Shown here: in pieces, positions 37,001-52,703 of the stretch
Position numbering within the stretch: the stretch's first letter is position 1
Layout of the letters: each line of letters opens with the position of its first letter
Assembly: GCF_009712605.1 (NCBI RefSeq)
Contig: NZ_WASO01000001.1
Location: 186,001-250,000, forward strand
DNA from: Paludibacter sp.
Lineage (GTDB): Bacteria > Bacteroidota > Bacteroidia > Bacteroidales > Paludibacteraceae
Reading direction: 5' to 3'
Length of the DNA: 64,000 nucleotides
Notes under the pieces: model-generated
What the model saw: the letters and a program-made list of their open reading frames with translations, nothing else
Told to the model about the DNA's origin: nothing
Databases searched by the model: none
Program-made: the position numbers and the translations under genes

Positions 37001-37415
37001 ATTCGGGCAGAATCATGTTCAGTTTGTTGATATTATGCTTGAGAGAAAACTCCGACTGGGGGTCCCAGTTTACATAAAAACCGGCTTTGACAGGATAATA
37101 GTTCTTTATAATGCCGGGTATCGCTTTTTTCTCTAAATAAAACTCGTGTTTGCGTGTTTTACGGGCTTCATTGATAATTCGTTCAAGCCGTTTGTATTCT
37201 TTCTGGTCGTTTTTGGCAATAACATTATCCGTTACTTTGCGGAACATCCCTGTTTGCTCTTTTAGCGGGGGAAGCTGTAATGCCTGTTTACGCAATAATG
37301 ATATAGTAACCGCAACAATACCAATGACTAAGAAAATAAGAACGATTCTTATACCCCAACGAAAACTCTTCCATCGGGACTGAGATTCCGTGTAAAAAAT
37401 TGGCTTTTCACCCAT
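34038..37415 (-). CDS. GH18-like / polysaccharide deacetylase / GT2 fusion membrane protein
   Basis: 1125 residues combining three enzyme modules in one membrane protein. TM at about 20-42. GH18-like domain at about 105-425, with the motif AGINIDFE (212-219) keeping Asp217 and Glu219 but having Ala212 and Asn215 where Asp is usual. NodB deacetylase at about 485-690: TFDDGPD with Asp495/Asp496, zinc ligands His546 and His550, RPPY at 584-587, LLHD with His655. TM at about 722-748. GT2 at about 765-1000, with D803/D804, DAD 854-856, AED 944-946 and QRLRW 982-986. Further TMs follow. This topology puts the first two modules outside and the GT2 inside. Likely synthesises and trims or deacetylates a beta-linked GlcNAc-type polymer. 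A TAACTTTG box lies at 37439-37446. Confidence 0.88.
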   Translation of the reverse strand: MGEKPIFYTESQSRWKSFRWGIRIVLIFLVIGIVAVTISLLRKQALQLPPLKEQTGMFRKVTDNVIAKNDQKEYKRLERIINEARKTRKHEFYLEKKAIPGIIKNYYPVKAGFYVNWDPQSEFSLKHNINKLNMILPEWLFITDSSDEIYDDVDSTAMNFMRKNHVAIVPILSNFFNKKWNGANVHKILASPTRRAAVINNIYRILKKYQFAGINIDFEDLVEKTDANLIAFQRELYKKLHAEGFLVSQDISPFNEDYNVKELGEANDLLFLMAYDQHSPSKAAGPIAAQYWIEAAMDDMFKKVSPQKVVLCIAGYGYNWAEGHEARNSTYQESMADALGNNAPVHFDNQTYNLDFSYYDGEGKLHRVYFTDAVSNYNAIRTAYDNGMAGYALWRLGSEDARLWGFFSRDLSLQGLKKKPFDYHSLEYIKSSFSVDYIGSGEILNIVSSPRPGKIKLEINKAEQAISEENYLEMPSSYVINQTGKKEKMIAFTFDDGPDEDYTPQILDILSKYHVPAAFFVTGINAEQNLPIMQRIYREGHEIGNHTFLHPNIAIISPSRFRAELRATGYIIEGITGHATMLFRPPYDTDITPTNQSAIEPLALARSEGYLTIGSNIDPLDWEIGARPDSILARVMRQNERSIQEDTPHNIILLHDAGGDRSATVAALPHIIEYYKSQGYKFVSIADLLDRKRDDLMPHQTGDFNQYLQTADATVVTASYIANRILSVIFFVALLLSVGKILTVAILACVHRKRTKNQPTTESTELPRMSVIVPAYNEEVTATKTVENLLKSTYPNLEIIFVDDGSKDDTYKNVMAAYGNHPKVSVNTKPNGGKASALNYGIQIATGEILVCIDADTLLKSDAISKMAPYFSDPKVAAVAGNVKVGNRVNLLTNWQSIEYITSQNFDRRAFDILNAIMVIPGAIGAFRRDAIIEVGGFDTDTLAEDCDLTMRLLRKGYVIHSCNEALAFTEAPETMNMLLRQRLRWSFGIMQSFWKHRKMMFKKEHKNMSWILLPHQMIFQLFLPLMSPVVDIIFLVSIFMPKASLLIIFYFAYFVLDLIISLMAFKFDGEKFRFKYIFYLFIQRILYRQLLWYVLMKSYLRAIKGELAAWGILKRTGNTNEPKE

Positions 37416-37614: not shown

Positions 37615-38853
37615 TTAATCTTCCGTTTTGTTAATCGTTTTTGGGCGTAGAAGCAATAATTGGAGAACTAAGGCAGCGGCAACGAAGATTGCAAGAAAGG
37701 CAATGTCGCGACTGAGATGCCCGGAGTCTGCCGATTGCCCCAAAAATGTGGTGATAAGCGCTCCTGCAGAGATTCCGGCCATGTTCATCAGTCCGTAACC
37801 GGTTGCTCGATGACGTGGTGATGCAAATTGGCAGAGAATGGGCATGTTATTCACGTCGAACATTCCGAATCCAAATCCGAAGCAGAGAGCTCCGCCCCAT
37901 ATAGTGATGAACGAATCTCCGAATCCGAGTAGTAACACGGCCGGAATGGTAAGTGCCAGTCCGATGGCTCCCGTGTAAATTCTTCCCCGCAGGTTACGTT
38001 GTACCCAGCGGTCTGACACAACACCTCCAACCAGTACACCAACCAAAGCCGAAAGAGCAATGGTGATAGTTGCCATCGGTCCTGCCATTTCCATGTTCAT
38101 GTGCAGATTGTTGGAAAAAAGGGTGGGGAGCCAGTTCTTTGTTGCCCAACCCGGAAGACTTGGTGCTGAAAAATAAAAGAGGATTACCCAGAAAGAGAGG
38201 CTTCCCAAAAGAGTTCCTGCTCCTTTGAACATGTTGCGGAATTCTTTTCCGAGTGAACGTGATTCAGGGGTAATTGTGTATGCTTTGTGTTCTTTCAAAA
38301 ACAGAATCAGGATGATGCTATAACAAACACCTATTAGTCCGAAAATATGGAAAGTGGTTTGCCATGAAAAATTGCTGGCAATGGTGGCTCCGAATCCGCC
38401 GAAAGCTTGTCCGAGATAAATACCTGTCATGTGGATGCCGACGGCAATCGATCGGGTTTTTCCCTGATGGTAGTCTGCAATGAGCGCCAAGCCTGCGGGA
38501 ATATAAAAAGCTTCGCTTACACCCATTATGGCACGCAAGATGTAGATTTGATTGAATGTATGTGCAAAACCCATCAGCGTTGTTACACCCGACCAGATGA
38601 AGAGGCTTCCCACGATCAGCCATTTGCGATTTAGTCGATCTGCTATAAGGCCGGAAAGCGGACTCATGATGGCATAAATCCAGAGGAAAACTGCCATCAG
38701 ACGACCGAAATTTGCGGCTGTTTCCAATTCGGCAATGTCGATCATCATCGATTGCTTCATGGTGGAAAGCATTTGCCGGTCGATGTAGTTGAGTAGTGCC
38801 ACAAACCACAATAAGCCGACTACAACCCATGGATATATATTCTTCTTTTGCAT
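37615..38853 (-). CDS. MFS transporter
   Basis: 412-residue major facilitator protein with twelve predicted membrane segments. The first helix contains LLNYIDRQMLS, a pattern seen in the organic anion/hexuronate branch of the superfamily. The loop between helices 2 and 3 reads GLIADRLNRKWLI, the MFS A-motif region. The substrate is not clear; an organic acid would fit the FAD/Fe-S dehydrogenase gene lying upstream on the same strand, but 490 bases and a terminator separate them. A TATTTTTG promoter box at 38876-38883 suggests independent transcription. Confidence 0.8.
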   Translation of the reverse strand: MQKKNIYPWVVVGLLWFVALLNYIDRQMLSTMKQSMMIDIAELETAANFGRLMAVFLWIYAIMSPLSGLIADRLNRKWLIVGSLFIWSGVTTLMGFAHTFNQIYILRAIMGVSEAFYIPAGLALIADYHQGKTRSIAVGIHMTGIYLGQAFGGFGATIASNFSWQTTFHIFGLIGVCYSIILILFLKEHKAYTITPESRSLGKEFRNMFKGAGTLLGSLSFWVILFYFSAPSLPGWATKNWLPTLFSNNLHMNMEMAGPMATITIALSALVGVLVGGVVSDRWVQRNLRGRIYTGAIGLALTIPAVLLLGFGDSFITIWGGALCFGFGFGMFDVNNMPILCQFASPRHRATGYGLMNMAGISAGALITTFLGQSADSGHLSRDIAFLAIFVAAALVLQLLLLRPKTINKTED

Positions 38854-39343: not shown

Positions 39344-42178
39344 TTAATGATTTTTTTTAGCTGTTGTACATTGATCTACAAGGTAAACAATTGACATATA
39401 TGGAATTCCACTGTTAGTCGTCAGTCCGATTTCGCAGGTGCGACTGTTGGAATAGCCTTTTTTAATTCCGTTTGCCTCAATTTGAGGATGCAGCTTGCGA
39501 AGTGCATATTTGTTCACCTCCGGAGTGGTAAAGCCTTTGTCGCCAGCGAAGCCGCAACATCCAATCTCCGATGGAAGCAAAACGTTTGACGAACAACGAT
39601 TTGCCAGACGGACTAACGTGTTCTTTAACCCCATTTTTGTCATGGAACAGGTGGTGTGTATTGCAATCGGTTCGTTGATAGGATGAAACTCCAGTTGGTC
39701 GACAAGATAGGTTTCGATAAATTCAACCGGTTCGTAGAGCTTCATTTTGGTAATTTTTTCCTTCATCCGGTAAAGGCACGGACTTTGATCGCATACCACA
39801 GGATATTTGCCCTGCTCGCTTGCTTTCCAGAGAGCAGCTTCCAGTTCTTCCGTCTTTCGATCCGCAATATCATACATACCTTTACTTTCCCAGATGGTTC
39901 CGCAGCACATCTTTTCCATCTCTTCGGGAAAAATCACTTCGTAGCCGGCTTTCTGAAAAAGCCCGGTCATTTTATCCGACAGAGGTGTTTGCTCGGGACT
40001 GTCTTTGTGAACTCCCATCGACTGGTTTATACAGCTTGGAAAGTACACCACTTTCAATTCGGAAGCTTTTATTTGAAGCTTGTTCAAATGAATTTTATGC
40101 GCCTTAGGCATAGCCGTTGTCCAAAGTGGTAGACCCATTTTGTTGGCTTCGTTGCAGAGATAGGTCATGTTTTTGCTACCCATCACTGTATGCGCAAAGT
40201 TGGCAAGTGTCAGTACGGAGCGTAATCCGGTTTTGATGCCTGCAAAATGATTGGCGGCAAAATTGCCTATATTCCATCCAAAACTGCCGGTTGGCAAAGA
40301 AGCGTGGCGAACATCGTGTGTCAGGTGGCCAGTGTTTATGCCCATTGGACACGAGGTGGCGCACAAGCCATCGCCGGCACAAGTTGCATTGCCAAGATAT
40401 TTGTATCCTTTTTCAAGTTCATGCAGAACTTCGGGATTCTCGTTGCTTTGTTTGAGTCGCGTTATTTCACGCTGGATCACAATTCGTTGTCTGGAAGATA
40501 ATGTGAATCCTGACGTGAGGCAGTTCACTTCGCAAAAGCCGCATTCAATACATTTGTCGACATGTGGGTTGGTAAGAGGCAACGGTTTGAAGTCTGAGAT
40601 GAAACAATCCGGATTGTCATTGAAAATTACACCCGGATTGAGAATGTTATTCGGATCGAAAAGTTTCTTGACCTTTTGCATTATGAAAAATGCTTCGCTT
40701 CCCCATTCTTTTTCCACAAAAGGAGCCATGTTGCGGCCTGTTCCGTGCTCTGCTTTTAAGGATCCGTCGTATTTTTCGGTCACAAGCTCTACCACATCTT
40801 TCATCAACGATTCGTAGCGTGCAACTTCTGCGTTCGAGTCAAATCGTTGATTGATAATGAAGTGGAAATTGCCTTCAAGCGCATGTCCATAAATAACACT
40901 ATCTGTATAGTTGTATTTTTCAAGAAGTTGCTGAAGTTCGGATGTCGCTTCTGCAAGGTCTTCCATGTGAAATGCCACATCTTCGATCAGGGTAGTAGTG
41001 CCGGGTTCGCGCATACCTCCCACCGAAGGGAAAATGCCTGAACGAATTGCCCACCACACGTTGTATACGTTTTCATCCTGTGTAAATGAGGCGGGTAGCA
41101 CTGTCTCAAATTCCCCGATGCACAGCTCTATTGCTTCGATCTGATGCAACAATTCATCTTCCGTATTCGCTTTTGTTTCAATCAACAATGCAGTTACTCC
41201 GGGGGCAAGTTGCGGTAAATAATCGGGCATTCCTTCTTTGCCTTCGACCGATTGTAATGCTTTCCTGTCGAGCAGCTCCACTCCGGTGACAGGCGTATGC
41301 TTTAGCTTTTGAACAACCTCGCAGGCATATTTAATGTCTTTCAGGTAGAGCATGGCGCTCGCCTTGAAATGCATTTCAGGCTCGGTACTTACCGTAGCCT
41401 CTGCCAGAAAAGCCAAGGTGCCTTCCGAACCAACCAGTAAATGCGTGATAATATCAAACGGATCGTCGAAGGTTATGAAAGGAAGAATGTTGAGTCCGGT
41501 AACGTTTTTGATGTTGTACTTATAGCGTATTCTGTCGGAAAGAGCTTTGTTTTGACGTATTTCATCTCTTAATTCTAAAAGCGTCTGTATGAATTCCGGA
41601 TGAGTAGCCTGAAATGCAGCTTTGCTTTGCTCGTCGGCAGTGTCCAGCAGTGTGCCATCTGCAAAAATGATACGTGCCGAAAGGAGGATTCTGTCGCTAT
41701 TAGCGTGAATGCCGCAACTTTTACCTGAAGCATTGTTTATAATGATTCCTCCCACCATGGCCGAGTTAAGAGAAGCAGGATCAGGAGAAAATATTCTGTC
41801 GAAAGGTTTTAATATTTCGTTTACGCGGCTTCCGACAATGCCGGGTTGCAGTGAGATTGTTTCTCCATTGTCGTGAATTCTGTATTTTTCCCAGAGTTTC
41901 CCGACCACAATCAGAACCGAGTCGCTTATTGCCTGACCGGAGAGACTGGTCCCGGCAGCCCGAAACGTAACCGGAGTGGCGGTGTCGTTCGCATTTTTTA
42001 AAAGAGTTCTGATTTCTTCTTCGCTGGTCGGATGTATAACGAGCTGAGGAATCTTACGGTAAAATCCGGCGTCGGTACCCCAGGCTAGGCGACGTGTGAT
42101 ATCAGTAAACAAACGCTGTTTTGTTATCGTTGTGGGCATTGCTTGCTGAAAAGCTCTGATGTTATTTGAAGTGTTCAT
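39344..42178 (-). CDS. FAD-binding and 4Fe-4S dehydrogenase with CCG domains (D-2-hydroxyacid type)
   Basis: Large 944-residue flavo-iron-sulfur enzyme that would oxidise a 2-hydroxyacid such as D-lactate or D-2-hydroxyglutarate and feed electrons to the respiratory chain. The N-terminal FAD_binding_4 domain contains AAGTSLSGQAISD and NNASGKSCG. The FAD-oxidase C-terminal domain with YGHALEGNFHF follows. Two ferredoxin-type motifs come next: CIECGFCEVNC and, later, CAGDGLCATSCP. The C-terminal part holds two CCG motifs (EKMCCG and IGCCGFAGD). It combines in one chain what GlcD/GlcF-type enzymes have in separate subunits. The ATG at 42178 is preferred to the TTG at 42184. Confidence 0.88.
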   Translation of the reverse strand: MNTSNNIRAFQQAMPTTITKQRLFTDITRRLAWGTDAGFYRKIPQLVIHPTSEEEIRTLLKNANDTATPVTFRAAGTSLSGQAISDSVLIVVGKLWEKYRIHDNGETISLQPGIVGSRVNEILKPFDRIFSPDPASLNSAMVGGIIINNASGKSCGIHANSDRILLSARIIFADGTLLDTADEQSKAAFQATHPEFIQTLLELRDEIRQNKALSDRIRYKYNIKNVTGLNILPFITFDDPFDIITHLLVGSEGTLAFLAEATVSTEPEMHFKASAMLYLKDIKYACEVVQKLKHTPVTGVELLDRKALQSVEGKEGMPDYLPQLAPGVTALLIETKANTEDELLHQIEAIELCIGEFETVLPASFTQDENVYNVWWAIRSGIFPSVGGMREPGTTTLIEDVAFHMEDLAEATSELQQLLEKYNYTDSVIYGHALEGNFHFIINQRFDSNAEVARYESLMKDVVELVTEKYDGSLKAEHGTGRNMAPFVEKEWGSEAFFIMQKVKKLFDPNNILNPGVIFNDNPDCFISDFKPLPLTNPHVDKCIECGFCEVNCLTSGFTLSSRQRIVIQREITRLKQSNENPEVLHELEKGYKYLGNATCAGDGLCATSCPMGINTGHLTHDVRHASLPTGSFGWNIGNFAANHFAGIKTGLRSVLTLANFAHTVMGSKNMTYLCNEANKMGLPLWTTAMPKAHKIHLNKLQIKASELKVVYFPSCINQSMGVHKDSPEQTPLSDKMTGLFQKAGYEVIFPEEMEKMCCGTIWESKGMYDIADRKTEELEAALWKASEQGKYPVVCDQSPCLYRMKEKITKMKLYEPVEFIETYLVDQLEFHPINEPIAIHTTCSMTKMGLKNTLVRLANRCSSNVLLPSEIGCCGFAGDKGFTTPEVNKYALRKLHPQIEANGIKKGYSNSRTCEIGLTTNSGIPYMSIVYLVDQCTTAKKNH

Positions 42179-42184
42179 AAGCAA

Positions 42185-42617: not shown

Positions 42618-43466
42618 ATGAAATTAATTGCCGACAGTGGTTCTTCTAAAACCGAATGGTGTCTTGTAGAAGGTATCTATGTTATAGAGAGAGCTTTTAC
42701 AGAGGGACTGAATCCTTTCTTTCAGATGCGAAGAGAGATTAGTCGGTCTATCAGGCTGCAATTGCCTGAGATTTTCTTCAAAAAGAAGGTTGATCAGATA
42801 TATTTTTATGGAGCAGGATGTTCTTCTAAAGAAAAAAAGGATGTCATTAAGGCATCTCTGGTGACTCAATTCAGGGCTCCTGCAGAAGTGGAGAGCGACT
42901 TGCTCGGAGCTGTAAGAGCTTTGTTCGGCAATCAGCCCGGAATTGGTTGTATTCTTGGAACCGGTTCAAACTCTTGTTTTTACGATGGAGAAAAGATAGT
43001 TAAGAACGTAGCTCCTTTGGGTTACATTTTGGGCGATGAGGGCAGTGGTGCCGTCTTGGGGAAAATGTTTCTGAGTGATTGTATGAAGCAAATTGCACCG
43101 AAAGATTTGTGTGATATGTTTTACGATGTATACAAGATTACGCCGGCGGATATTATGGAAAACGTTTATAGTAAGCCTTTTGCCAATCGTTTTCTTGCGA
43201 GCTTTTCATTCTTCTTGGAAAAGCATCTCGATCACGAGTATGTCTATGAACTTGTGAGTCAGAATTTCCGTAACTTTTTTACCCGCAATATCGTGCATTA
43301 CGATTATAAAGCTTATCCTATTCATTTTATGGGGCATGTGGCTTACTTCTATGCAGATATCCTGAAAGAGGTAGCTTCCGAATTTGATGTTGTCGTCGGC
43401 CAGATAGAAAAATCGCCGATGCCGGGGTTGGTTCGCTATCATACTGCCCATTGCCGGTTAGATTAA
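42618..43466 (+). CDS. BadF/BadG-type sugar kinase, MurNAc/GlcNAc kinase (MurK-like), copy 1
   Basis: 282-residue ASKHA-fold kinase predicted to phosphorylate an amino sugar freed from peptidoglycan. The phosphate-1 loop is IADSGSSKTEW at residues 4-14. EGLNPFF is a family segment. ESDLLGA holds the candidate catalytic Asp, ILGTGSNSC is the phosphate-2 loop, and GDEGSGAVLG follows. The murQ gene 1.3 kb downstream and the AmpG-like permease point to MurNAc, as in the MurK/MurQ/MurT set of Tannerella forsythia. It has its own promoter and terminator, so it is not on the transcript of copy 2. Which sugar each copy uses cannot be told from sequence. Confidence 0.8.
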   Translation: MKLIADSGSSKTEWCLVEGIYVIERAFTEGLNPFFQMRREISRSIRLQLPEIFFKKKVDQIYFYGAGCSSKEKKDVIKASLVTQFRAPAEVESDLLGAVRALFGNQPGIGCILGTGSNSCFYDGEKIVKNVAPLGYILGDEGSGAVLGKMFLSDCMKQIAPKDLCDMFYDVYKITPADIMENVYSKPFANRFLASFSFFLEKHLDHEYVYELVSQNFRNFFTRNIVHYDYKAYPIHFMGHVAYFYADILKEVASEFDVVVGQIEKSPMPGLVRYHTAHCRLD

Positions 43467-43488
43467 CTCTATAATCATTATATAGATG

Positions 43489-43523
43489 AAAATCAGTGAA
43501 TCTTACGATTTACTGATTTTTTT
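43489..43523 (+). terminator. terminator after kinase copy 1
   Basis: AAAATCAGTGAATC (43489-43502) pairs imperfectly with GATTTACTGATTTT (43507-43520), then T. Confidence 0.8.
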
Positions 43524-43907
43524 GTGCAATTGAATGTGTGTTTGTTTGATAAATATTTACAAATGAACTGTAGCTGTAGAGTAAACTGTTTTGCTGGTAT
43601 TATCGGATATGCAGATCATATATTTATTTAATCATTTGTTAGTTAGTTGTTTGCTGCGTTATTTCTGTTGCCTCTTTTCTTTGCTTTTGAGCTGATTAAA
43701 ATACAAAAAAGTGTATGAAAACAATAAATAAAATAAAAATAATGATTTATATGTTGTTTTCGGGTTTCAAATCATAAACTTTCAATTACCTTTGTTGCGA
43801 TATAATTGATAAGCCGGCTTGAATACAATTTCACACTGCCATCTTCTTTTGACGGTGTCCGGACTTCAGATCAATTAGTTTTGATAAATCATTTTCATCA
43901 AATAAAT
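43524..43907. other. regulatory region before kinase copy 2
   Basis: AT-rich, no gene. TACCTTTG at 43787-43794 is a -7 candidate without a good -33, leaving a leader of about 110 bases. The open frame to a TTG at 43806 covers this leader and is not believed. Confidence 0.5.
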
Positions 43908-44759
43908 ATGATACTTATTGCGGATAGTGGATCTACAAAGACTTATTGGTCGCTTATTAAGGCTGATGGTAGTTGTAGTCATTATTACACACAGGGGATA
44001 AATCCTTTTTTTCAGACTGAATATGAAATAGAGGGATTTTTGCGGATGACATTGCTGCCACAACTTGGAATCAATGAAATTTCTGAAATTTATTTCTACG
44101 GTGCCGGGTGTGCCACAGAAAAGCAAATCAATTTGGTCAGGTCTGCTTTTTCCAAAGTATTTGTTTATGAAAAAATAGAGGTGGCAAGCGACTTGCTAGG
44201 TGCAGCAAAAGCGCTGTGTGGTGATGAGCCCGGTATAGCATGTATTTTAGGAACAGGATCAAACTCTTGTTATTACGATGGAAATACGATTGCACAACAG
44301 GTTTCTCCGCTGGGATTCATTATCGGAGACGAAGGTAGTGGTGCTTCATTAGGGAAGCGGTTGGTTGCCGATTGTCTGAAGAACCAACTTCCGGAAGGAC
44401 TCAAAGAACGGTTTTTGGAACGCTTCAAGCTGACACAGGCTCAAATTGTAGAAAATATTTACAGCAAGCCTTTCCCGAGCAGATTTCTGGCCTCATTGTC
44501 GTTGTTCCTGATAGAAAATATAGAAGAACCGGCGCTATATCAGATAGTGTATGACGGTTTTACCGATTTCTTCAAAAGAAATGTTTTTCAATACGATTAT
44601 AAAGGCAAAAAAGTAAATGTAGTAGGCTCTATCGGATATCATTATCAGGATGTGCTTCGCAAGGTGGCGGATGATCTTTCCCTGCAACTGGGGAAAATAA
44701 TTCAGGCTCCTTCTGAAGAACTGATAAAATATCACATTCAACGGTCTAATAAACTCTGA
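43908..44759 (+). CDS. murK: BadF/BadG-type sugar kinase, MurNAc/GlcNAc kinase (MurK-like), copy 2
   Basis: 283-residue paralogue of the kinase just upstream. It shares the loops IADSGSTKTYW, QGINPFFQ, IYFYGAGC, ASDLLGAAKAL, ILGTGSNSCYYDG and GDEGSGASLG, and NIYSKPFPSRFLAS. The ATG at 43908 places the first ATP loop at residues 4-14, exactly as in copy 1, and excludes the longer frame. Only eight bases separate it from murQ, so it is the kinase most likely to supply MurNAc-6-phosphate to MurQ. The symbol is given on that context; a GlcNAc kinase role is the main alternative. Confidence 0.8.
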   Translation: MILIADSGSTKTYWSLIKADGSCSHYYTQGINPFFQTEYEIEGFLRMTLLPQLGINEISEIYFYGAGCATEKQINLVRSAFSKVFVYEKIEVASDLLGAAKALCGDEPGIACILGTGSNSCYYDGNTIAQQVSPLGFIIGDEGSGASLGKRLVADCLKNQLPEGLKERFLERFKLTQAQIVENIYSKPFPSRFLASLSLFLIENIEEPALYQIVYDGFTDFFKRNVFQYDYKGKKVNVVGSIGYHYQDVLRKVADDLSLQLGKIIQAPSEELIKYHIQRSNKL

Positions 44760-44767
44760 TTACGCGT

Positions 44768-45604
44768 ATGGCGTTTAAAAAAATCACCGAGATGTCGTCG
44801 TTGCACGATAATCTTGACAAAAGTTCTGTGCTCGAATTGTTGACAGGTATCAACGAAGAAGATAAAAAAGTGCCTCTTGCTGTAGAAAAGGCGATTCCTC
44901 AGTTAGAAAAGCTGGTTGAATCGATAGTGTTGAGGATGAAGCGGGGTGGACGAATTTTCTACATGGGAGCTGGTACCAGTGGTCGGTTGGGAGTCCTCGA
45001 TGCTTCGGAGATTCCCCCGACTTATGGTATGCCCAATACTTTGGTTATCGGTCTGATAGCCGGAGGCGACAGAGCGCTTCGTAATCCGGTGGAAGCCGCC
45101 GAAGACAGCGAAGAAAAAGGCTGGCAGGAACTGGTGAGTTATAATGTGAATGTGAATGATACAGTGATTGGTATCGCGGCATCAGGCACAACACCTTATG
45201 TGATAGGTGCTTTGAAGCATGCTCAGCTAAATGGAATTCTTACGGCTTCTATTTCTTGTAATCCTGACGCTCCGGTAGCTCAATATGCAGATATACCCAT
45301 CGAGGTAATAGTAGGACCGGAATTTGTGACCGGAAGTACCCGTATGAAAGCCGGAACAGCACAGAAGCTGGTGCTGAACATGATCACGACGACCACCATG
45401 ATTAAATTGGGACGTGTAAAAGGGAATCGGATGGTGAATATGCAGCTGACTAACAAAAAGTTGGTTGACCGTGGCACCCGAATGATTATGGAAGAAACCA
45501 ATCTTGAATACGAAGCAGCAAAGAACCTGCTGTTACTGCATGGCTCGGTAAAAAAGGCTACCGACGCATTTTTTAATGTCAATAAAGAAGAAAATATCAA
45601 ATGA
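44768..45604 (+). CDS. murQ: N-acetylmuramic acid 6-phosphate etherase MurQ
   Basis: Cytoplasmic lyase that removes D-lactate from MurNAc-6-phosphate to give GlcNAc-6-phosphate, the committed step of MurNAc recycling. The SIS-type fold is shown by YMGAGTSGRLGVLDASE (residues 65-81, with the candidate catalytic Glu81), ALRNPVEAAEDSEEKG, IAASGTTPYV and GSTRMKAGTAQKLVLNM. At 278 residues it is slightly shorter than enterobacterial MurQ, lacking part of the C-terminal tail. The stop codon overlaps the start of the next gene (ATGA at 45601-45604), which implies translational coupling. Confidence 0.95.
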   Translation: MAFKKITEMSSLHDNLDKSSVLELLTGINEEDKKVPLAVEKAIPQLEKLVESIVLRMKRGGRIFYMGAGTSGRLGVLDASEIPPTYGMPNTLVIGLIAGGDRALRNPVEAAEDSEEKGWQELVSYNVNVNDTVIGIAASGTTPYVIGALKHAQLNGILTASISCNPDAPVAQYADIPIEVIVGPEFVTGSTRMKAGTAQKLVLNMITTTTMIKLGRVKGNRMVNMQLTNKKLVDRGTRMIMEETNLEYEAAKNLLLLHGSVKKATDAFFNVNKEENIK

Positions 45605-47058
45605 TACGAATTGATTGTTTTTTACCGTTTGCTTCTAAAGAGCAGATTACTCCGACTCTGGAACAACTGACTGCGTCATCGCTGGTCGGCAAAATTTATC
45701 TGTTGGCAACCGAAGAGACCCAAGGTTTCGGAGGTTACGAAGTGCTGCACATCGACAGCCTGAAAAGTAGTGCAACCATGCACATGATTGCTTCCAAAGC
45801 TACTTCTGACTATATTTTCGTTTATCAAAAATATTCACCCCTGCAATTGGGCTATTTTGCGCTCGATCGTATGGTGAACCTGGCCGATGACTCGGCTGCC
45901 GGTATGGTTTACGCTGATTTTTATCAGGTGATCGATGGCGTGAAGAAAATTCATCCGGTGATTGCTTACCAGGAAGGAAGCTTGCGCGACGATTTCGATT
46001 TCGGATCGGTGTTGCTTTTTTGCTCCAAAGCATTCAAAGAAGCCGTAGCGGCCATGAAGGCCAATTATGCTTTTGCAGGACTGTACGATCTGCGCCTGAA
46101 GCTTTCGCAAAAACACGATCTCGTTCATATCAACGAATATCTCTACTCAGAAATAGAAACGGATAGCCGTAAGTCGGGCGAAAAAATCTTCGACTACGTT
46201 GATCCGAAAAACCGAAGTGTACAGATTGAAATGGAAGCTGCCTGCACCGAACATCTCAAAGAAGTGGGTGCTTATCTGGCTCCTCAGTTCAAAGATGTGG
46301 CTTTCGAGGAAGGAAGTTTCCCGGTGGAAGCATCGGTTATCATTCCGGTATTCAACCGCGTTCGTACCATCGAAGATGCCATTCAATCGGTGTTGAAACA
46401 ACAATGTAAATTCGATTTCAACCTTATTATTATCGATAATCATTCAACTGACGGAACCACGGAGTTAATCAAAAAATACGAATCGGATCCGCGGGTTATT
46501 CATTTGATTCCGGAACGTTTCGATCTGGGCATCGGAGGTTGCTGGAACGTGGGTGTACAGGATAAACGTTGCGGAAAATTTGCCGTTCAGTTGGATAGCG
46601 ATGATGTTTACAGCGGAGAAACTACTCTGCAAACCATCGTGGATGCTTTCTACGAACAACAATGCGCCATGGTGGTGGGAACCTACCGAATGACCAACTT
46701 CAACATGGAAACCATTCCTCCCGGAGTGATTGATCACAAGGAGTGGACACCGGATAATGGTCGGAATAATGCTTTGCGTATCAATGGACTGGGAGCACCG
46801 CGTGCCTTTTATACCCCGATGTTGCGCAAAATTAAAGTGCCGAATACCAGCTATGGTGAAGACTATGCGCTGGGACTCTATTTCTCTCGCGAACACCGTA
46901 TCGGACGTGTTTATGACGTGCTGTACCTGTGCCGTCGCTGGGAAGATAACTCGGATGCCTCGTTGGATATTGTGAAAATGAATGGTCACAATACCTATAA
47001 GGATCGCATTCGTACCTGGGAGCTGAAAGCTCGTAAAAAACTAAATGGAAAGCGTTAG
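45601..47058 (+). CDS. family 2 glycosyltransferase with a degenerate N-terminal GT-A-like domain
   Basis: 485-residue soluble protein. The C-terminal half is a clear GT2 domain: ASVIIPVFNRVRTIEDAI from residue 244, IIIDNHSTDGTTELI near 276, DSDD at 332-335, and WEDNSDASL near the end. Residues 1-190 look like a second, decayed GT-A fold, with IRIDCFLPF at the start and VYADFY where the metal-binding motif would be. No membrane segment. The gene overlaps murQ by four bases, so its product is made together with the MurNAc enzymes, yet a glycosyltransferase has no evident step in salvage. Its function is unknown. Confidence 0.82.
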   Translation: MIRIDCFLPFASKEQITPTLEQLTASSLVGKIYLLATEETQGFGGYEVLHIDSLKSSATMHMIASKATSDYIFVYQKYSPLQLGYFALDRMVNLADDSAAGMVYADFYQVIDGVKKIHPVIAYQEGSLRDDFDFGSVLLFCSKAFKEAVAAMKANYAFAGLYDLRLKLSQKHDLVHINEYLYSEIETDSRKSGEKIFDYVDPKNRSVQIEMEAACTEHLKEVGAYLAPQFKDVAFEEGSFPVEASVIIPVFNRVRTIEDAIQSVLKQQCKFDFNLIIIDNHSTDGTTELIKKYESDPRVIHLIPERFDLGIGGCWNVGVQDKRCGKFAVQLDSDDVYSGETTLQTIVDAFYEQQCAMVVGTYRMTNFNMETIPPGVIDHKEWTPDNGRNNALRINGLGAPRAFYTPMLRKIKVPNTSYGEDYALGLYFSREHRIGRVYDVLYLCRRWEDNSDASLDIVKMNGHNTYKDRIRTWELKARKKLNGKR

Positions 47059-47173
47059 CTTTAATTGTTAGTTGGGAGGAAAATAGTGGAAGGTATTTGT
47101 TGTTTTAGTTTTCAAATTTCCACATTTTCAAATCTTCAAATTTGTTAGTTGTCGTTTTTTTAATCTAATTACC

Positions 47174-48169
47174 ATGAATCAATATCCTAAAGACGAAGAA
47201 CTAAACTCTTGTTGTCAGGGTGACTCGTTGATGGATCGGGTGTACAATCTTCTTGAACGGCAAATCGCTGTCTGGGAGCTTCCGAAACGCAATTATACCT
47301 CGCTGGATAAGGTCGAAACCAAGACTTTGACAGTGGGTAGCATGGAGATGATGGTACAGTTCAATCCTTCGCGTATTGTCTCTTCTGCCGCAAAAGTGGA
47401 TGCTGCTTCGATTAAGGAACGCAAGTGCTTTTTGTGTAAAGCGCATTTGCCTCAGGAACAAGAGGGAATTCCTTTTGGAGACGGATATTTGATCCTGGTC
47501 AATCCGTTCCCGATTTTTCCGAAGCACTTTACGATTCCGGCTTTGGAGCATACCGATCAGCTCATTCGCTCACGGTTGGGCGATATGCTGGATGTTGCCG
47601 AAGCATTAAATGATTGTGTTATATTTTACAACGGACCGAAGTGCGGAGCGTCCGCTCCTGATCACATGCACTTTCAGGCCGGTAACAGAGGTTTCCTGCC
47701 TCTTGAAAAAAACTGGAATTCTGTCTATCGTGAACAAGCCGCGGTAATTGTCGACTGTCCGGAAATTAAAGTTTCACGTCTTTCTTTTTATCCACATGCT
47801 GCATTGGTGCTCGAGTCGGCGGACAAAGAGGCTGTGCTGCAACTGTTTGAAAAAATCTACACTTTACTGACTGTTCCACAGGATAGTCCCGAACCCATGC
47901 TCAACTTGCTTTGCCGGTTCGACGATGGATTGTGGACGCTCTGGGTTTTCCCGCGGAAGTTGCACCGTCCCCGGCAATATTTTGCCGAAGGCGACGACAA
48001 TCTGCTGATAAGCCCTGCATCCGTCGATTTGGGTGGCGTATTTATCACTCCGCTTCAAAAAGACTTCGAAAAAATCACATCAATCGATATAGAAGATATT
48101 CTCCGGCAAATCTCAATGGATGCGGACGAATTCGATTTGCTTTGCAGTCGGTTGAAAGATATTCGATAG
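47174..48169 (+). CDS. DUF4922 / HIT-superfamily nucleotide-sugar phosphorylase-like protein
   Basis: 331-residue cytoplasmic protein with the histidine-triad-type motif PDHMHFQAG at residues 162-170 (His164, His166, Gln168). This is the arrangement found in Ap4A phosphorylase, GalT and GDP-L-galactose phosphorylase. NPFPIFPKHFTI at 110-121 and a CFLC pair at 85-88 also fit that group. The family is known as DUF4922 in Bacteroidales; its reaction is unassigned. By analogy it would move a nucleotidyl group on a sugar phosphate. It follows the GT2 gene by 115 bases, which suggests the two act on the same compound; that is inference. Confidence 0.7.
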   Translation: MNQYPKDEELNSCCQGDSLMDRVYNLLERQIAVWELPKRNYTSLDKVETKTLTVGSMEMMVQFNPSRIVSSAAKVDAASIKERKCFLCKAHLPQEQEGIPFGDGYLILVNPFPIFPKHFTIPALEHTDQLIRSRLGDMLDVAEALNDCVIFYNGPKCGASAPDHMHFQAGNRGFLPLEKNWNSVYREQAAVIVDCPEIKVSRLSFYPHAALVLESADKEAVLQLFEKIYTLLTVPQDSPEPMLNLLCRFDDGLWTLWVFPRKLHRPRQYFAEGDDNLLISPASVDLGGVFITPLQKDFEKITSIDIEDILRQISMDADEFDLLCSRLKDIR

Positions 48170-48210
48170 AAGTATGGTTTTGTCTTGAATCATAAAATCC
48201 TCCTAACGGT

Positions 48211-48378
48211 GCAAGTGCTGATTGAAGAGCTGTAAATACTAATCGAAAATCAGTAAGTAGCATTCGGAAAGCTGTAAGTAACATTCCAAACGCTGTAAGT
48301 GACGTTTGGAAAGGTGTAAATAACATTCGAAGAACTATAAGTGGCATTCGAGAAGCTGCAAATGTTCGAAATAAAATA
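48211..48378 (+). repeat. eight-unit tandem repeat with exact 21-base period
   Basis: Units begin at 48211, 48232, 48253, 48274, 48295, 48316, 48337 and 48358, each 21 bases long. The working consensus is GTAAGTAACATTCGAAAAGCT; the first and last units have drifted most. The array lies between the DUF4922 stop (48169) and the AmpG-like start (48396). It has no in-frame start codon. A minus-strand open frame across it encodes a seven-residue repeat but has no other support as a gene. Confidence 0.85.
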
Positions 48379-48395
48379 AGTATCGATAAATAGAA

Positions 48396-50255
48396 ATGTC
48401 AAAATTCAAAAAAACTCCCTGGTTCTGGATTCCGACGCTTTATTTTGCGGAAGGAATTCCTTATGTGGTTGTTGCGACAACATTCTCGGTTATTATGTAC
48501 AAACGACTGGGATTGTCAAATGCCGAAATAACTTTTTATACCAGTTGGTTGTATTTGCCCTGGGTTATTAAACCTTTCTGGAGTCCTTTCGTGGACATTT
48601 TCAAAACCAAACGTTGGTGGATTATCTCTATGCAGTTGTTGATCGGAGCCGGGTTGGCGGGAGTGGCATTCTTGTTGCATGCTCCGTTCTTCTTTCAAGC
48701 GACACTGGCTGTGTTTTGGCTTGTGGGATTCAGTTCTGCAACGCATGATATTGCAGCCGATGGTTTTTACATGCTGGCTCTCGACAATGCTCAACAATCG
48801 TTCTTCGTTGGGATCCGAAGTACGTTTTATCGTTTAGCCATGATTACCGGTCAGGGATTATTGGTTATCATTGCGGGTAGTCTCGAAACGTTTACCGGTT
48901 CTCAGCCGGTACAATTCTCAGTTGAGTCCTCAAGTTCGGTTCAATCAAAGGTGTGGCAATTACCGCAAGATTATCGTGTGCCCAAAACTGACGAGATGAC
49001 CTTTGTTGCGTTCCCTTCTCATTTGATAATTAATACAAATAAAATAGCCAAAGATTCGTTGGCGAAAGTGAAGAAACTGGCAACACAGGAAAATGTAAAA
49101 AATGGTTTTGTAGAAGTAGAGCAGAATCTCTCCGAGCAAAATAAAAAAGCGCATGCTTCGTGGTGGACAGAGAAAGTCTCGGCTCCATTAGGAAGATTTT
49201 TGAAAGATCATTTTGGCAAAAAAACGGTTGTGTCGGCCTCGAATGAAAAAGTAGGCAATGCAGGGATTGTGGCTATTCGGCTGACAAAAAAACCTGATCC
49301 AGGCAAAACAGTGGTACTCAATACCGCTTTCACTAAAGGGGATAAGAGTATTTCTATAATCGGGGGAGAGAGAGTTGTCTTTTCCTCTGAAAACTGGGAT
49401 AAACCAGCTTACGTGGTGGTGCAACTCGATAATAAATTGAACAACACTGTAAAAAGTGAATTCAAGGGCGTTTCTGGAAATATTAAGTTGGCATGGAGCA
49501 TTACCTTTTTTATTTTGGCCGGCTTCTTTATCATGCTATTTGTTTACCATCGCTTTGTGCTGCCGAAACCGGACTCTGACCATTCCACAGCAGCCAGTAG
49601 TGTGAGGGATATCTTTAAGGAATTTGGGCGCACTTTTGCCTCCTTTTTTCAAAAACCGGGCGTGCTACTGGCCATCTTCTTTATGCTTACCTATCGGTTA
49701 GGTGAGGCATTGTTAATAAAAATAGTATCTCCGTTCCTGCTTGATGCCAGAGAAGCTGGAGGTCTTGGTCTGACGACAGGGCAGGTAGGACTGGTGTATG
49801 GAACGGTAGGTGTGGTGGCATTAACTCTTGGTGGTATCGTGGGTGGAATTGCAGCTTCACGTAAAGGGTTGAAATTCTGGATATGGCCTATGGCAATGGC
49901 GATCACGTTACCTCAATGTTCCTATATATTTCTATCAATGTTTATGCCGGAAAACTTCTTTTTTGTCAATCTTGCGGTTGCAGTTGAGCAATTCGGCTAT
50001 GGGTTCGGATTTACCGCTTATATGTTGTATATGATCTCTTTTGCTGATGGAGAACATAAAACAGCTCATTATGCGATATGTACTGCTTTTATGGCTTTAA
50101 GCATGATGTTGCCGGGATTGTTTGCCGGTTGGTTACAAGAACAAATAGGCTATCAGCATTATTTTCTGTCGGTAATGCTGGCGATTATACCTTGTTACCT
50201 GGCCGTTTCGATGTTGAAGATTGATCCCGAATTCGGGAAGAAAAAGAAAAACTAA
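48396..50255 (+). CDS. AmpG/MurT-like muropeptide or MurNAc permease with an inserted domain
   Basis: 619-residue major facilitator protein of the AmpG branch: WFWIPTLYFAEGIPYVVV at the start, LYLPWVIKPFWSPFVD near residue 52, and SATHDIAADGFYMLAL near 114. AmpG-type carriers bring anhydro-muropeptides or, in the MurT case, MurNAc into the cytoplasm. Between the early and late helices there is an insert at about 165-360. Its end resembles a Calx-beta-like sandwich (VVFSSENWDKPAYVVVQLDN, 327-346). This insert is absent from ordinary AmpG. Later membrane helices are normal. Neighbours murK/murQ and namZ support MurNAc or MurNAc-peptide import. Confidence 0.8.
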   Translation: MSKFKKTPWFWIPTLYFAEGIPYVVVATTFSVIMYKRLGLSNAEITFYTSWLYLPWVIKPFWSPFVDIFKTKRWWIISMQLLIGAGLAGVAFLLHAPFFFQATLAVFWLVGFSSATHDIAADGFYMLALDNAQQSFFVGIRSTFYRLAMITGQGLLVIIAGSLETFTGSQPVQFSVESSSSVQSKVWQLPQDYRVPKTDEMTFVAFPSHLIINTNKIAKDSLAKVKKLATQENVKNGFVEVEQNLSEQNKKAHASWWTEKVSAPLGRFLKDHFGKKTVVSASNEKVGNAGIVAIRLTKKPDPGKTVVLNTAFTKGDKSISIIGGERVVFSSENWDKPAYVVVQLDNKLNNTVKSEFKGVSGNIKLAWSITFFILAGFFIMLFVYHRFVLPKPDSDHSTAASSVRDIFKEFGRTFASFFQKPGVLLAIFFMLTYRLGEALLIKIVSPFLLDAREAGGLGLTTGQVGLVYGTVGVVALTLGGIVGGIAASRKGLKFWIWPMAMAITLPQCSYIFLSMFMPENFFFVNLAVAVEQFGYGFGFTAYMLYMISFADGEHKTAHYAICTAFMALSMMLPGLFAGWLQEQIGYQHYFLSVMLAIIPCYLAVSMLKIDPEFGKKKKN

Positions 50256-50278
50256 CCGTTTTTACCAATGGCTTTGTG

Positions 50279-51517
50279 ATGATGAAAAGATTAAATGTGA
50301 TATGGATGATGGCCGCTTTGCTGTGCCTGTCTCAGAGCGGGATGGGTGCGCAAAGGGTAAAAACGGGTATTGAAGTACTCCGCGAAAGTGGATTCAAAAT
50401 GCTTCAGGGAAAACGTGTAGGACTTATTACCAATCCTACAGGCGTTGACTCGCAATTGAAGTCGACAGTAGATATACTGAATGAAGCCGCGGGAGTAAAA
50501 CTGGTTGCTTTATATGGTCCCGAACATGGAGTACGGGGTGATGTTTATGCCGGCGATCATGTGGATAGTATTGTCGATAAGACAGGAGTACCTGTTTATT
50601 CGCTTTACGGAAAATCAAAGAAACCGACACCCGATATGCTGAGAGATGTTGATGTGATTGTGTATGATATTCAGGATATTGGGTGTCGTTCCTATACTTT
50701 TATCAGTACCATGGGACTGGCCATGCAGGCAGCTGCCGAAAATGACAAAGAATTTGTGGTACTTGACCGGCCAAATCCGCTTGGAGGAGTGAAAATTGAA
50801 GGCAATCTGGCGGAAGACAAGTTTATCTCGTTTGTCAGCCAGTTCAAGATTCCGTACCTCTATGGGCTTACCTGCGGAGAGCTGGCCAAATTGCTAAACA
50901 ACGAAAATATGTTAGGCAAGAAATGTAAGTTGACGGTGGTCCCAATGAAAGGCTGGAAGCGTAAGATGACTTATGCGCAAACCGGTTTGCCCTGGGTGCT
51001 CACTTCTCCGCATGTGCCTTATGCAGAGTCCGCGGCTTATTACGCTGCATCCGGAATTCTTGGCGAGTTTGATTTTATGTCGATTGGGGTGGGCTACACA
51101 TTGCCATTCCAGCTTTTTGCCAAAGATTCGATTGATGCTAACGTCCTTGCCGAAAAGATGAATGCTCTGAAATTGCCGGGAGTGTTGTTTCGCCCGATCA
51201 ACCTGAAGCCGTTTTATTCGGTAGGCAGGGGTTTGAATTATTCCGGCGTACAATATTTTATAACCGATTATAAAGTGGCTCGATTGACAGAGATTCAGTT
51301 TTGTGTGATGCAGGAGATGGCTAAACTCTATCCCGAAAAGAAGTGCTTCGGTCCTTCTACTAAGTCGCGGTACGATATGTTCGATAAAGTGTGTGGCAGC
51401 GACCAGATACGTTTGCGTTTTGCTCAAAATATGAATGTGGACGACATCCTTCCTTACTGGAGAAAAGATGAAGATGCTTTCAGAAAATTGTCAAAGAAAT
51501 ATTATCTCTATAAATAA
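50279..51517 (+). CDS. namZ: exo-beta-N-acetylmuramidase NamZ (DUF1343, GH171)
   Basis: Secreted glycosidase that removes MurNAc from the non-reducing end of peptidoglycan chains; DUF1343 proteins were characterised as NamZ in Bacillus subtilis and related enzymes exist in Tannerella forsythia. About 412 residues with a signal peptide ending near GMGAQ. Signature segments are LITNPTGVD, ALYGPEHGVRGD, GVPVYSLYG, YDIQDIGCRSYTF, LDRPNPLGG and a late ALKLPGVLFRP. Three start codons occur in a row (GTG 50276, ATG 50279, ATG 50282); the first ATG is taken. It follows the permease by 24 bases and fits as the enzyme that supplies the permease with substrate. Confidence 0.9.
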   Translation: MMKRLNVIWMMAALLCLSQSGMGAQRVKTGIEVLRESGFKMLQGKRVGLITNPTGVDSQLKSTVDILNEAAGVKLVALYGPEHGVRGDVYAGDHVDSIVDKTGVPVYSLYGKSKKPTPDMLRDVDVIVYDIQDIGCRSYTFISTMGLAMQAAAENDKEFVVLDRPNPLGGVKIEGNLAEDKFISFVSQFKIPYLYGLTCGELAKLLNNENMLGKKCKLTVVPMKGWKRKMTYAQTGLPWVLTSPHVPYAESAAYYAASGILGEFDFMSIGVGYTLPFQLFAKDSIDANVLAEKMNALKLPGVLFRPINLKPFYSVGRGLNYSGVQYFITDYKVARLTEIQFCVMQEMAKLYPEKKCFGPSTKSRYDMFDKVCGSDQIRLRFAQNMNVDDILPYWRKDEDAFRKLSKKYYLYK

Positions 51518-51524
51518 AATTCCT

Positions 51525-52703
51525 ATGCCGACGACTAACAGACTTTTGGCGCTTGATGTGATGAGGGGAATCACAATTTCCGGAATGATCCTGGTGAATA
51601 ACCCGGGTTCGTGGGGGCATATTTTTACCCCGTTGGAACATGCATCATGGAATGGACTGACTCCCACTGATCTGGTATTCCCGTTCTTTATGTTTATTAT
51701 GGGAGTTTCTACTTATTTCTCGCTAAAGAAATATGACTTTAAGTTTTCGTCGGAGGCGGCATGGAAGATTGGTAAACGTACACTGGTTATTTTTGGTATT
51801 GGTTTGGCTTTGGGTTGGTTTGGCTTGTTTTGCAGAACCACTCTGGACTTTGGCAATACAGAAATGACATTTTCCGAACGCCTGATGCATGGTCTGCTTC
51901 CATTCGACAGAATACGAGCCCTCGGTGTAATGCAACGACTGGCCTTGAGTTATTTCGGAGCTTCCATTATTATCCTGCTTATTAACCATAAAAAGGTATT
52001 GTATGTTGCAGGGGGGATTTTAGTTGCGTATCTGGCAATTTTGCTGCTTGGTAACGGCTTCGACCTGTCGGAAAACAACGTGATTAATATTGTCGACAGG
52101 GCTCTGTTTGGTGTCAATCACATGTATAAGGATACATTGCCCGATGGTTCTTTGTTTGCTTTTGATCCAGAAGGACTGTTGAGTACACTTCCTTGTTTTG
52201 CTCATGTGTTGCTGGGCTTCTACGTGGGTAAGATCATTAACGAAGTGAAAGATAACAGCCAGCGTATCCAGCAGATCTTTATTTTTGGAACAGTACTGCT
52301 GTTTGCCGGTTTCCTGTTGAGCTACGGATGTCCGATCAACAAGAAGGTATGGAGCACTACTTTCGTGATGGTAACATGCGGTTTAGGTTCTTTGTTGCTT
52401 GCTTTGTTGATATGGATTATCGATATAAAAGGATATGCCCGTTGGTCAAGATTCTTCGAGTCATTCGGTATCAATCCTTTGTTTATGTATGTTTTAGGAG
52501 CCTTCTTGTCAGTATTGTTCGGTACAATACCTTTGGTGATGAGTCCTGAAGTCTTAACTATCAAGGGATTTATATATAACGATTTGCTTTTGTCCTGGCT
52601 GCCCGACCTGTGGGCGTCTCTTGCGTTTGCGGTCTTTTTTGTCATGCTCAACTGGATTTTCGGACATATCCTGTATAAAAAGCAGGTATATATCAAGATA
52701 TAG
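51525..52703 (+). CDS. NagX/HGSNAT-like membrane acyltransferase (DUF5009)
   Basis: 392-residue polytopic membrane protein related to heparan-alpha-glucosaminide N-acetyltransferase. Signature segments are LALDVMRGITISGMILVNN at the start and HASWNGLTPTDLVFPFFMFIMG near residues 38-60, with His at 38. Later helices include GINPLFMYVLG. Homologues called NagX sit in GlcNAc utilisation operons of several bacteria, where they may acetylate glucosamine units across the membrane. An upstream start at 51435 would overlap namZ; the ATG at 51525, eight bases after the namZ stop, gives the conserved N-terminus. Confidence 0.82.
   Translation: MPTTNRLLALDVMRGITISGMILVNNPGSWGHIFTPLEHASWNGLTPTDLVFPFFMFIMGVSTYFSLKKYDFKFSSEAAWKIGKRTLVIFGIGLALGWFGLFCRTTLDFGNTEMTFSERLMHGLLPFDRIRALGVMQRLALSYFGASIIILLINHKKVLYVAGGILVAYLAILLLGNGFDLSENNVINIVDRALFGVNHMYKDTLPDGSLFAFDPEGLLSTLPCFAHVLLGFYVGKIINEVKDNSQRIQQIFIFGTVLLFAGFLLSYGCPINKKVWSTTFVMVTCGLGSLLLALLIWIIDIKGYARWSRFFESFGINPLFMYVLGAFLSVLFGTIPLVMSPEVLTIKGFIYNDLLLSWLPDLWASLAFAVFFVMLNWIFGHILYKKQVYIKI

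Follow-up and report, generated by a model that had tools for sequence, protein, structure and literature searches.

The stretch of DNA under study (hereafter the window) comprises 64,000 nucleotides of a Paludibacter sp. genome (RefSeq GCF_009712605.1, contig NZ_WASO01000001.1; 3.7 Mb in 15 contigs), corresponding to G000:C11:186001-250000 in our numbering. Between nucleotides 42618 and 52703 it carries eight genes, all on the plus strand, which specify two BadF-type kinases (K1 and K2), an N-acetylmuramic acid (MurNAc)-6-phosphate etherase (MurQ), a family 2 glycosyltransferase (GT2), a DUF4922 protein, an AmpG-like permease, an exo-muramidase of the NamZ family and a NagX-like acyltransferase. 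These eight genes had been listed, and their families named, in a sequence-only reading; all were present, and the names are borne out by profile searches even though the kinases, AmpG and NagX score below their model cut-offs. The same reading took the locus for a cell-wall-sugar salvage cluster, which the comparisons given here support.

Kinase K1 (42618..43466) has its closest solved relatives in PDB 8oqk and 8ow7 (phmmer E 1.8e-114 for 8oqk). In Thr69 and Arg-Ala, 8oqk fits the published description of K1058 of Tannerella forsythia, and the nearest structure to K1 is thus of K1058 type; its lactyl pocket reads Ala-Pro-Leu. K1058 is a slow MurNAc kinase whose gene lies just upstream of a T. 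forsythia operon discussed below (PMC10465942). The best PDB matches of K2 (43908..44759) are 1zxo, followed by 8oqw/8ow9 (MurK; E 1.4e-90). Its lactyl pocket is Ser-Pro-Leu as in MurK, where these are the key MurNAc residues that make room for the lactyl group (PMC10465942), and the triplet recurs in 34 of 38 K2-type open reading frames (ORFs) of the named loci described below. Since it carries this triplet, K2 is likely a MurNAc 6-kinase; K1 is its paralogue, with an uncertain substrate assignment. Both kinases fall under the cut-off of the BcrAD_BadFG profile. The start of K2 is most likely at 43908, a TTG alternative at 43806 adding 34 residues ahead of MILIADSG. A direct-repeat search around the two kinase genes returned just two short two-copy families.

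MurQ (44768..45604) exceeds the TIGR00274 cut-off (329 vs 302 bits). NamZ (50276..51517; DUF1343), of an exported exo-beta-N-acetylmuramidase family, has NamZ_N (E 1.3e-83) and NamZ_C (E 1e-34) domains, both over their cut-offs, and matches PDB 4k05 (E 1.1e-176). A second NamZ-family gene, 31% identical to that of the window, lies about 26 kb downstream and outside the window (G000:C11:262123-262722). The AmpG-like permease (48396..50255) is divided into halves by an insertion of some 200 residues and matches TIGR00901 in two stretches totalling 166.8 bits, short of the cut-off of 350, which was also missed in 61 of the 61 genomes compared; it was assigned to AmpG by kinship to the setting of the T. 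forsythia gene and not by this model. The named loci have AmpG ORFs of two size classes, 42 being short (396-471 residues) and 22 long (613-686 residues). The NagX-like membrane acyltransferase (51525..52703) reaches 121.6 bits against the cut-off of 480 of NF046061, the model for the transmembrane glucosamine N-acetyltransferase NagX; its start was chosen by hand and is most likely 51525, an alternative ATG at 51435 overlapping NamZ.

The GT2 protein (45601..47058) shows a Glycos_transf_2 match at residues 245-374, and its model (mean confidence, pLDDT, 89.3) has two GT-A-type domains, the C-terminal one with DxD and GED motifs. Over the whole protein the best fold match is to chondroitin polymerase K4CP (E 9.7e-22), with a TM-score of just 0.41, so the domain arrangement differs from that of K4CP; 6p61 and TarP are among the structures matched by the C-terminal domain. 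Invariant in 37 sequences are D332/D334, G419-E420-D421 and R445-R446-W447. Alignment A4 has 36 further sequences, of which 35 share 60-71% identity with the window protein and one shares 47%.

The DUF4922 protein (47174..48169; 216 bits to DUF4922) has the two-histidine HIT fold of the diadenosine tetraphosphate (Ap4A) phosphorylase and GDP-hexose phosphorylase kind. Its profile matches the yeast Ap4A phosphorylase Apa2 (4i5t; E 9.8e-07), and an AlphaFold2 model (pLDDT 90.5) aligned to the same structure with Foldseek (E 9.2e-12, TM 0.59-0.63, 18% identity); weaker fold matches are to Arabidopsis At5g18200 and GalT. Across 42 sequences, Cys85, Cys88, His118, Asn153, Ser160, His164, His166 and Gln168 do not vary. 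Both the HxHxQ motif and the Apa2-like fold are thus found, and are shared with yeast Apa2, plant GDP-L-galactose phosphorylase and At5g18200; unlike Apa2, to which it is 18% identical, the DUF4922 protein is set among wall-sugar salvage genes. Plant GDP-L-galactose phosphorylases have been put in the DUF4922 superfamily (PMC11047344), and the two-histidine form is described as favouring reaction with phosphate, At5g18200 phosphorolysing ADP-glucose (PMC11066809). From motif and model, phosphorylase-type nucleotidyl transfer is the likeliest chemistry.

Conservation was followed in loci found with the GT2 alignment; those named here are the best 80 of 588 confirmed and, being the best-scoring of the scan, lean towards near relatives. 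Allowing for losses, their usual order is C6-GT2-DUF4922-SpoIID-AmpG-NamZ-(D-2-hydroxyacid dehydrogenase)-NagX-MurK-MurQ, C6 being a golvesin-domain protein. Gene presence was counted on the 49 of the 80 with a length of 17 kb or more: AmpG was found in 45, SpoIID and a MurK-type kinase in 42 each, DUF4922 in 40, NamZ in 35, C6 in 34, NagX in 30, MurQ in 26 and an FAD/Fe-S dehydrogenase in 15. The control counts, for five unrelated genes of the window, were 0, 0, 0, 0 and 2 of these loci. GT2, AmpG, NamZ, kinases and MurQ likewise recur near the DUF4922 genes of relatives (L034-L067; 34 loci of some 7-20 kb). Outside the Bacteroidales (20 loci) the GT2-DUF4922 pair is kept, several loci having SpoIID and AmpG near and others lacking them. 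A synteny survey across the Bacteroidales had been proposed as a check on the sequence-only reading; the neighbourhood reaches far beyond the window genome, and the controls are near-empty. The L066 row of one alignment (A2) proved to be a misread frame and was excluded from later alignments.

Of the 62 named loci with a DUF4922 gene in this conserved neighbourhood, 59 have its start no more than 400 nt from where GT2 ends. The two are a single ORF of 821-878 residues in Bacteroides xylanisolvens (L129), B. congonensis (L130) and B. faecalis (L134). In 8 named loci DUF4922 and SpoIID form a joint ORF, 648-764 residues long and in one case truncated where the locus ends, and in five relatives (G009, G015, G019, G036 and G044) they share one open frame. 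Fusions of these two kinds place the three activities in one compartment. A protein of 625-667 residues occurs near GT2 in 4 of the 80 named loci (L047, L122, L127 and L145); its match begins a putative pair of amino-sugar-deaminase-like and LmbE-like parts.

The closest known system is that of T. forsythia (Tanf_08345-08385), for which the operon description in PMC5388701 gives a single transcript of xanthan lyase, gtf, gtf, lytB, ampG, ybbC, murT, murK and murQ. By position and annotation alone, the second gtf would be DUF4922, lytB SpoIID and ybbC NamZ. The gene kinds are the same, as is the order in most related loci, and in the window GT2, DUF4922, AmpG, NamZ, MurK and MurQ stand together on one strand. 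The window cluster differs in having MurK and MurQ first with two kinases side by side, and in lacking SpoIID and the xanthan-lyase/golvesin gene, neither SpoIID/lytB nor a xanthan-lyase-like gene being among the window ORFs between 37615 and 58225. No murT-type symporter was seen in it, MurT not having been specifically searched for. As a set, then, the genes are not new, being largely known from T. forsythia. Four genes of that operon (xanthan lyase, gtf, gtf and lytB) are conserved without a published role; no paper assigning one to the gtf/gtf/lytB genes was found among those under open licence, which is not proof of absence. What is added here is a ranked assignment for GT2, DUF4922 and SpoIID.

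Recycling in Escherichia coli runs through AmpG, NagZ, AnmK and MurQ. AmpG import and the MurQ step are common to that route and the present cluster; the difference would lie in NagZ and AnmK. Co-occurrence was examined in the window genome and 60 relatives, and since these 61 genomes are related and some are incomplete, p values overstate the contrasts. GT2 was found in 43 of them, DUF4922 in 37, SpoIID in 48, AmpG in 45, MurQ in 20 and AnmK in 19. AmpG accompanies GT2 in 42 of 43 genomes and occurs in 3 of the 18 without it, and SpoIID is present in all 37 genomes with DUF4922. The reverse holds for the textbook enzymes: AnmK was found in 7/43 genomes with GT2 (the window genome among them) vs 12/18 without (2/36 vs 12/18 by genus, 1/9 vs 12/16 by family), and NagZ-like proteins (E <= 1e-30) in 9/43 vs 15/18. 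Neither is present in 29 of the 43 GT2 genomes, whereas both are found in 12 of the 18 without GT2. A wider count of 296 genomes of the phylum gave SpoIID in 40 of the 41 with strong DUF4922 matches vs 40 of the 255 others, and AnmK in 17/41 vs 190/255; three weak partial DUF4922 matches (G087, G196 and G220) were excluded from the first class, reducing it from 44 to 41, and counted among the 255.

The NagZ model cut-off was reached in 0 of the 61 genomes. Most NagZ-like matches in genomes with GT2 lie in long frames of 986-1041 residues; G002 has one of 620 and G043 one of 582. Two of the long proteins were inspected and have an N-terminal hydrophobic stretch, a GH3 domain and a beta-lactamase-type domain. 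A survey of GH3 proteins in six genomes gave 40 matches; the 30 that were inspected all have a hydrophobic N-terminal stretch, and two of them, both exported fusions, show the NagZ-type KHFPGHG motif.

SpoIID looks to be cytosolic here, judged by a crude measure of N-terminal hydrophobicity: the median is 1.21 for SpoIID, compared with 1.10 for GT2 and 2.72 for the exported NamZ, and by this measure SpoIID as a group (54 proteins) shows no signal peptide. Glu121, Cys183, His187 and Cys188 (numbering of the window genome protein) are conserved to 97% or more across 55 sequences; by analogy with the sporulation SpoIID, the glutamate would be catalytic and the Cys/His set would bind zinc.

The cluster is best read as a local form of a peptidoglycan-sugar salvage operon of the Bacteroidales in which the GT2/DUF4922/SpoIID trio would break down, in the cytoplasm, the N-acetylglucosamine (GlcNAc)-(anhydro)MurNAc imported by AmpG, replacing NagZ and AnmK; we put the probability of this at about one half. 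The sequence-only reading had joined NamZ, permease, kinase and MurQ in one continuous route. That part is not supported, since in T. forsythia AmpG imports the disaccharides GlcNAc-MurNAc and GlcNAc-anhMurNAc while free MurNAc is not AmpG-dependent (PMC7670621), and the published growth data speak against NamZ to AmpG as a single line. For this reason it is more likely, by analogy with T. forsythia, that NamZ (with an importer that the cluster does not show) and AmpG form parallel branches meeting at MurK and MurQ. The suggestion that the two middle proteins might add an undescribed step is upheld as a possibility and sharpened, both belonging to the conserved core.

In such a scheme wall fragments would be trimmed outside the cytoplasm, where NamZ, going by its family, would release MurNAc, and AmpG would bring in the two disaccharides. 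GT2, with DUF4922 and the cytosolic SpoIID where present, may then split the disaccharide and open the anhydro ring, as co-occurrence, fusions and fold suggest. MurK would phosphorylate MurNAc, and MurQ would act on the product. The MurQ reaction yields GlcNAc-6-phosphate and D-lactate, the latter probably being the substrate oxidised by the FAD/Fe-S enzyme, as the MurQ chemistry suggests. That enzyme (39344..42184, minus strand), which the earlier gene list lacked, is a 946-residue protein of FAD-binding and Fe-S D-2-hydroxyacid dehydrogenase type (FAD-oxidase_C, FAD_binding_4, 4Fe-4S and CCG domains) encoded divergently to K1. Of the 80 named loci, 20 have its gene within the cluster, which fits disposal of the D-lactate released by MurQ, and the arrangement of dehydrogenase, divergent kinases 1 and 2, MurQ and GT2 is also found in another Paludibacter sp. 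(L075).

A more detailed version of the trio's chemistry is tentative and, on balance, doubtful. Here GT2 would run in reverse, GlcNAc-MurNAc and a nucleoside diphosphate (NDP) giving NDP-GlcNAc and MurNAc; DUF4922 would convert NDP-GlcNAc to GlcNAc-1-phosphate and NDP, so that the fused pair would perform a nucleotide-mediated phosphorolysis of the disaccharide that keeps the bond energy, and cytosolic SpoIID would open the 1,6-anhydro ring instead of AnmK. It is made less likely by the existence of clusters without DUF4922.

Several observations weigh against replacement of NagZ and AnmK by the trio. GT2 enzymes normally build bonds. By family the NagZ-like contrast is 6/9 vs 15/16 (p 0.12) and not significant, and GH20, GH84 and other glucosaminidase families were not searched for. 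AnmK coexists with the module in 7/43 relatives, the window genome (AnmK at C11:63234) among them, and in 17/41 genomes of the phylum count, so that strict mutual exclusion is ruled out. No NagZ-like match was found in the window genome at E <= 1e-30, and the module would there most need to replace NagZ. MurQ has no match in 24 of the 43 GT2 genomes, which ties the trio to AmpG more than to MurQ. DUF4922 is likewise ruled out as an obligatory partner: among the 18 named loci without it, 7 pass from GT2 directly to SpoIID and 3 directly to AmpG, the others ending early or being rearranged. In the window genome SpoIID is encoded outside the cluster, at G000:C11:113221, with about 117 kb between it and GT2, and by the crude signal-peptide measure 6 of 54 SpoIID and 6 of 73 GT2 proteins reach an N-terminal hydrophobicity of at least 1.6, as do 59 of 59 NamZ.

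Three other explanations were considered. GT2 and DUF4922 might make or modify a glycan or a lipid-linked sugar, as in surface glycosylation, and share the operon just for co-regulation. GT2 is synthetic by family, its best whole-protein fold match is a chondroitin polymerase, and several Ignavibacteria-type loci have the GT2-DUF4922 pair without a nearby AmpG, all of which would fit; the tight co-occurrence of GT2 with AmpG and the DUF4922-SpoIID fusions do not, nor were polysaccharide-export genes recognised beside GT2 in the annotated loci, where annotation covered part of the neighbours. We consider this account unlikely, if the best of the three.

Somewhat less probable is a housekeeping role for DUF4922 as a nucleotide phosphorylase, either Ap4A-like or clearing misprimed NDP-sugars, with SpoIID, acting on imported oligosaccharides longer than the disaccharide, as the sole salvage enzyme of the trio. 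SpoIID proteins are lytic transglycosylases of stripped glycan, the closest solved structure to DUF4922 is an Ap4A phosphorylase, and some clusters do without DUF4922; a housekeeping role is, however, hard to square with its near-constant place behind GT2 and its fusion to GT2 or to SpoIID. Ordinary MurNAc catabolism from NamZ through permease and kinase to MurQ, the remaining genes being incidental, is very improbable, for although all four activities are encoded in the cluster and MurK and MurQ have been characterised in T. forsythia, free MurNAc is independent of AmpG there (PMC7670621) and GT2 is often present without MurQ.

The remaining features touch the edges and gaps of the cluster. 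A major facilitator superfamily (MFS) transporter resembling D-galactonate transporters (37615..38853, minus strand; MFS_1 E 5.5e-51; TIGR00893 140.9 bits, below the cut-off of 395) adjoins the cluster in three loci from the same genus (L034, L036 and L037) and in 0 of the 80 named loci, and is only weakly tied to it. Beyond it, on the minus strand, lies a gene for a 1125-residue protein (34038-37415) with GH18, polysaccharide deacetylase and PgaC-like GT2 domains. The gap between DUF4922 and ampG, much shorter in L034 and L036 than in the window, contains a degenerate tandem array of a 21-nt repeat (48224..48358, no strand; 6.4 copies, score 109) whose core word has no other copy in the window. 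A promoter between the genes finds no support, promoter-like sites being no commoner than chance would give (26 vs 24.9 expected), and terminator-like sites exceed those in shuffled sequence (27 vs 9.7), many of them inside genes.

For T. forsythia, the account of AmpG in PMC7670621 predicts no AnmK ortholog and states the processing of AmpG-imported fragments as open. GT2, DUF4922 and SpoIID are here named as three candidate genes for that step, since across the order they track AmpG and run counter to NagZ-like proteins and AnmK. If the proposed role is true, cell-wall recycling in a common group of bacteria of the gut and mouth would follow a route other than that of the textbooks.

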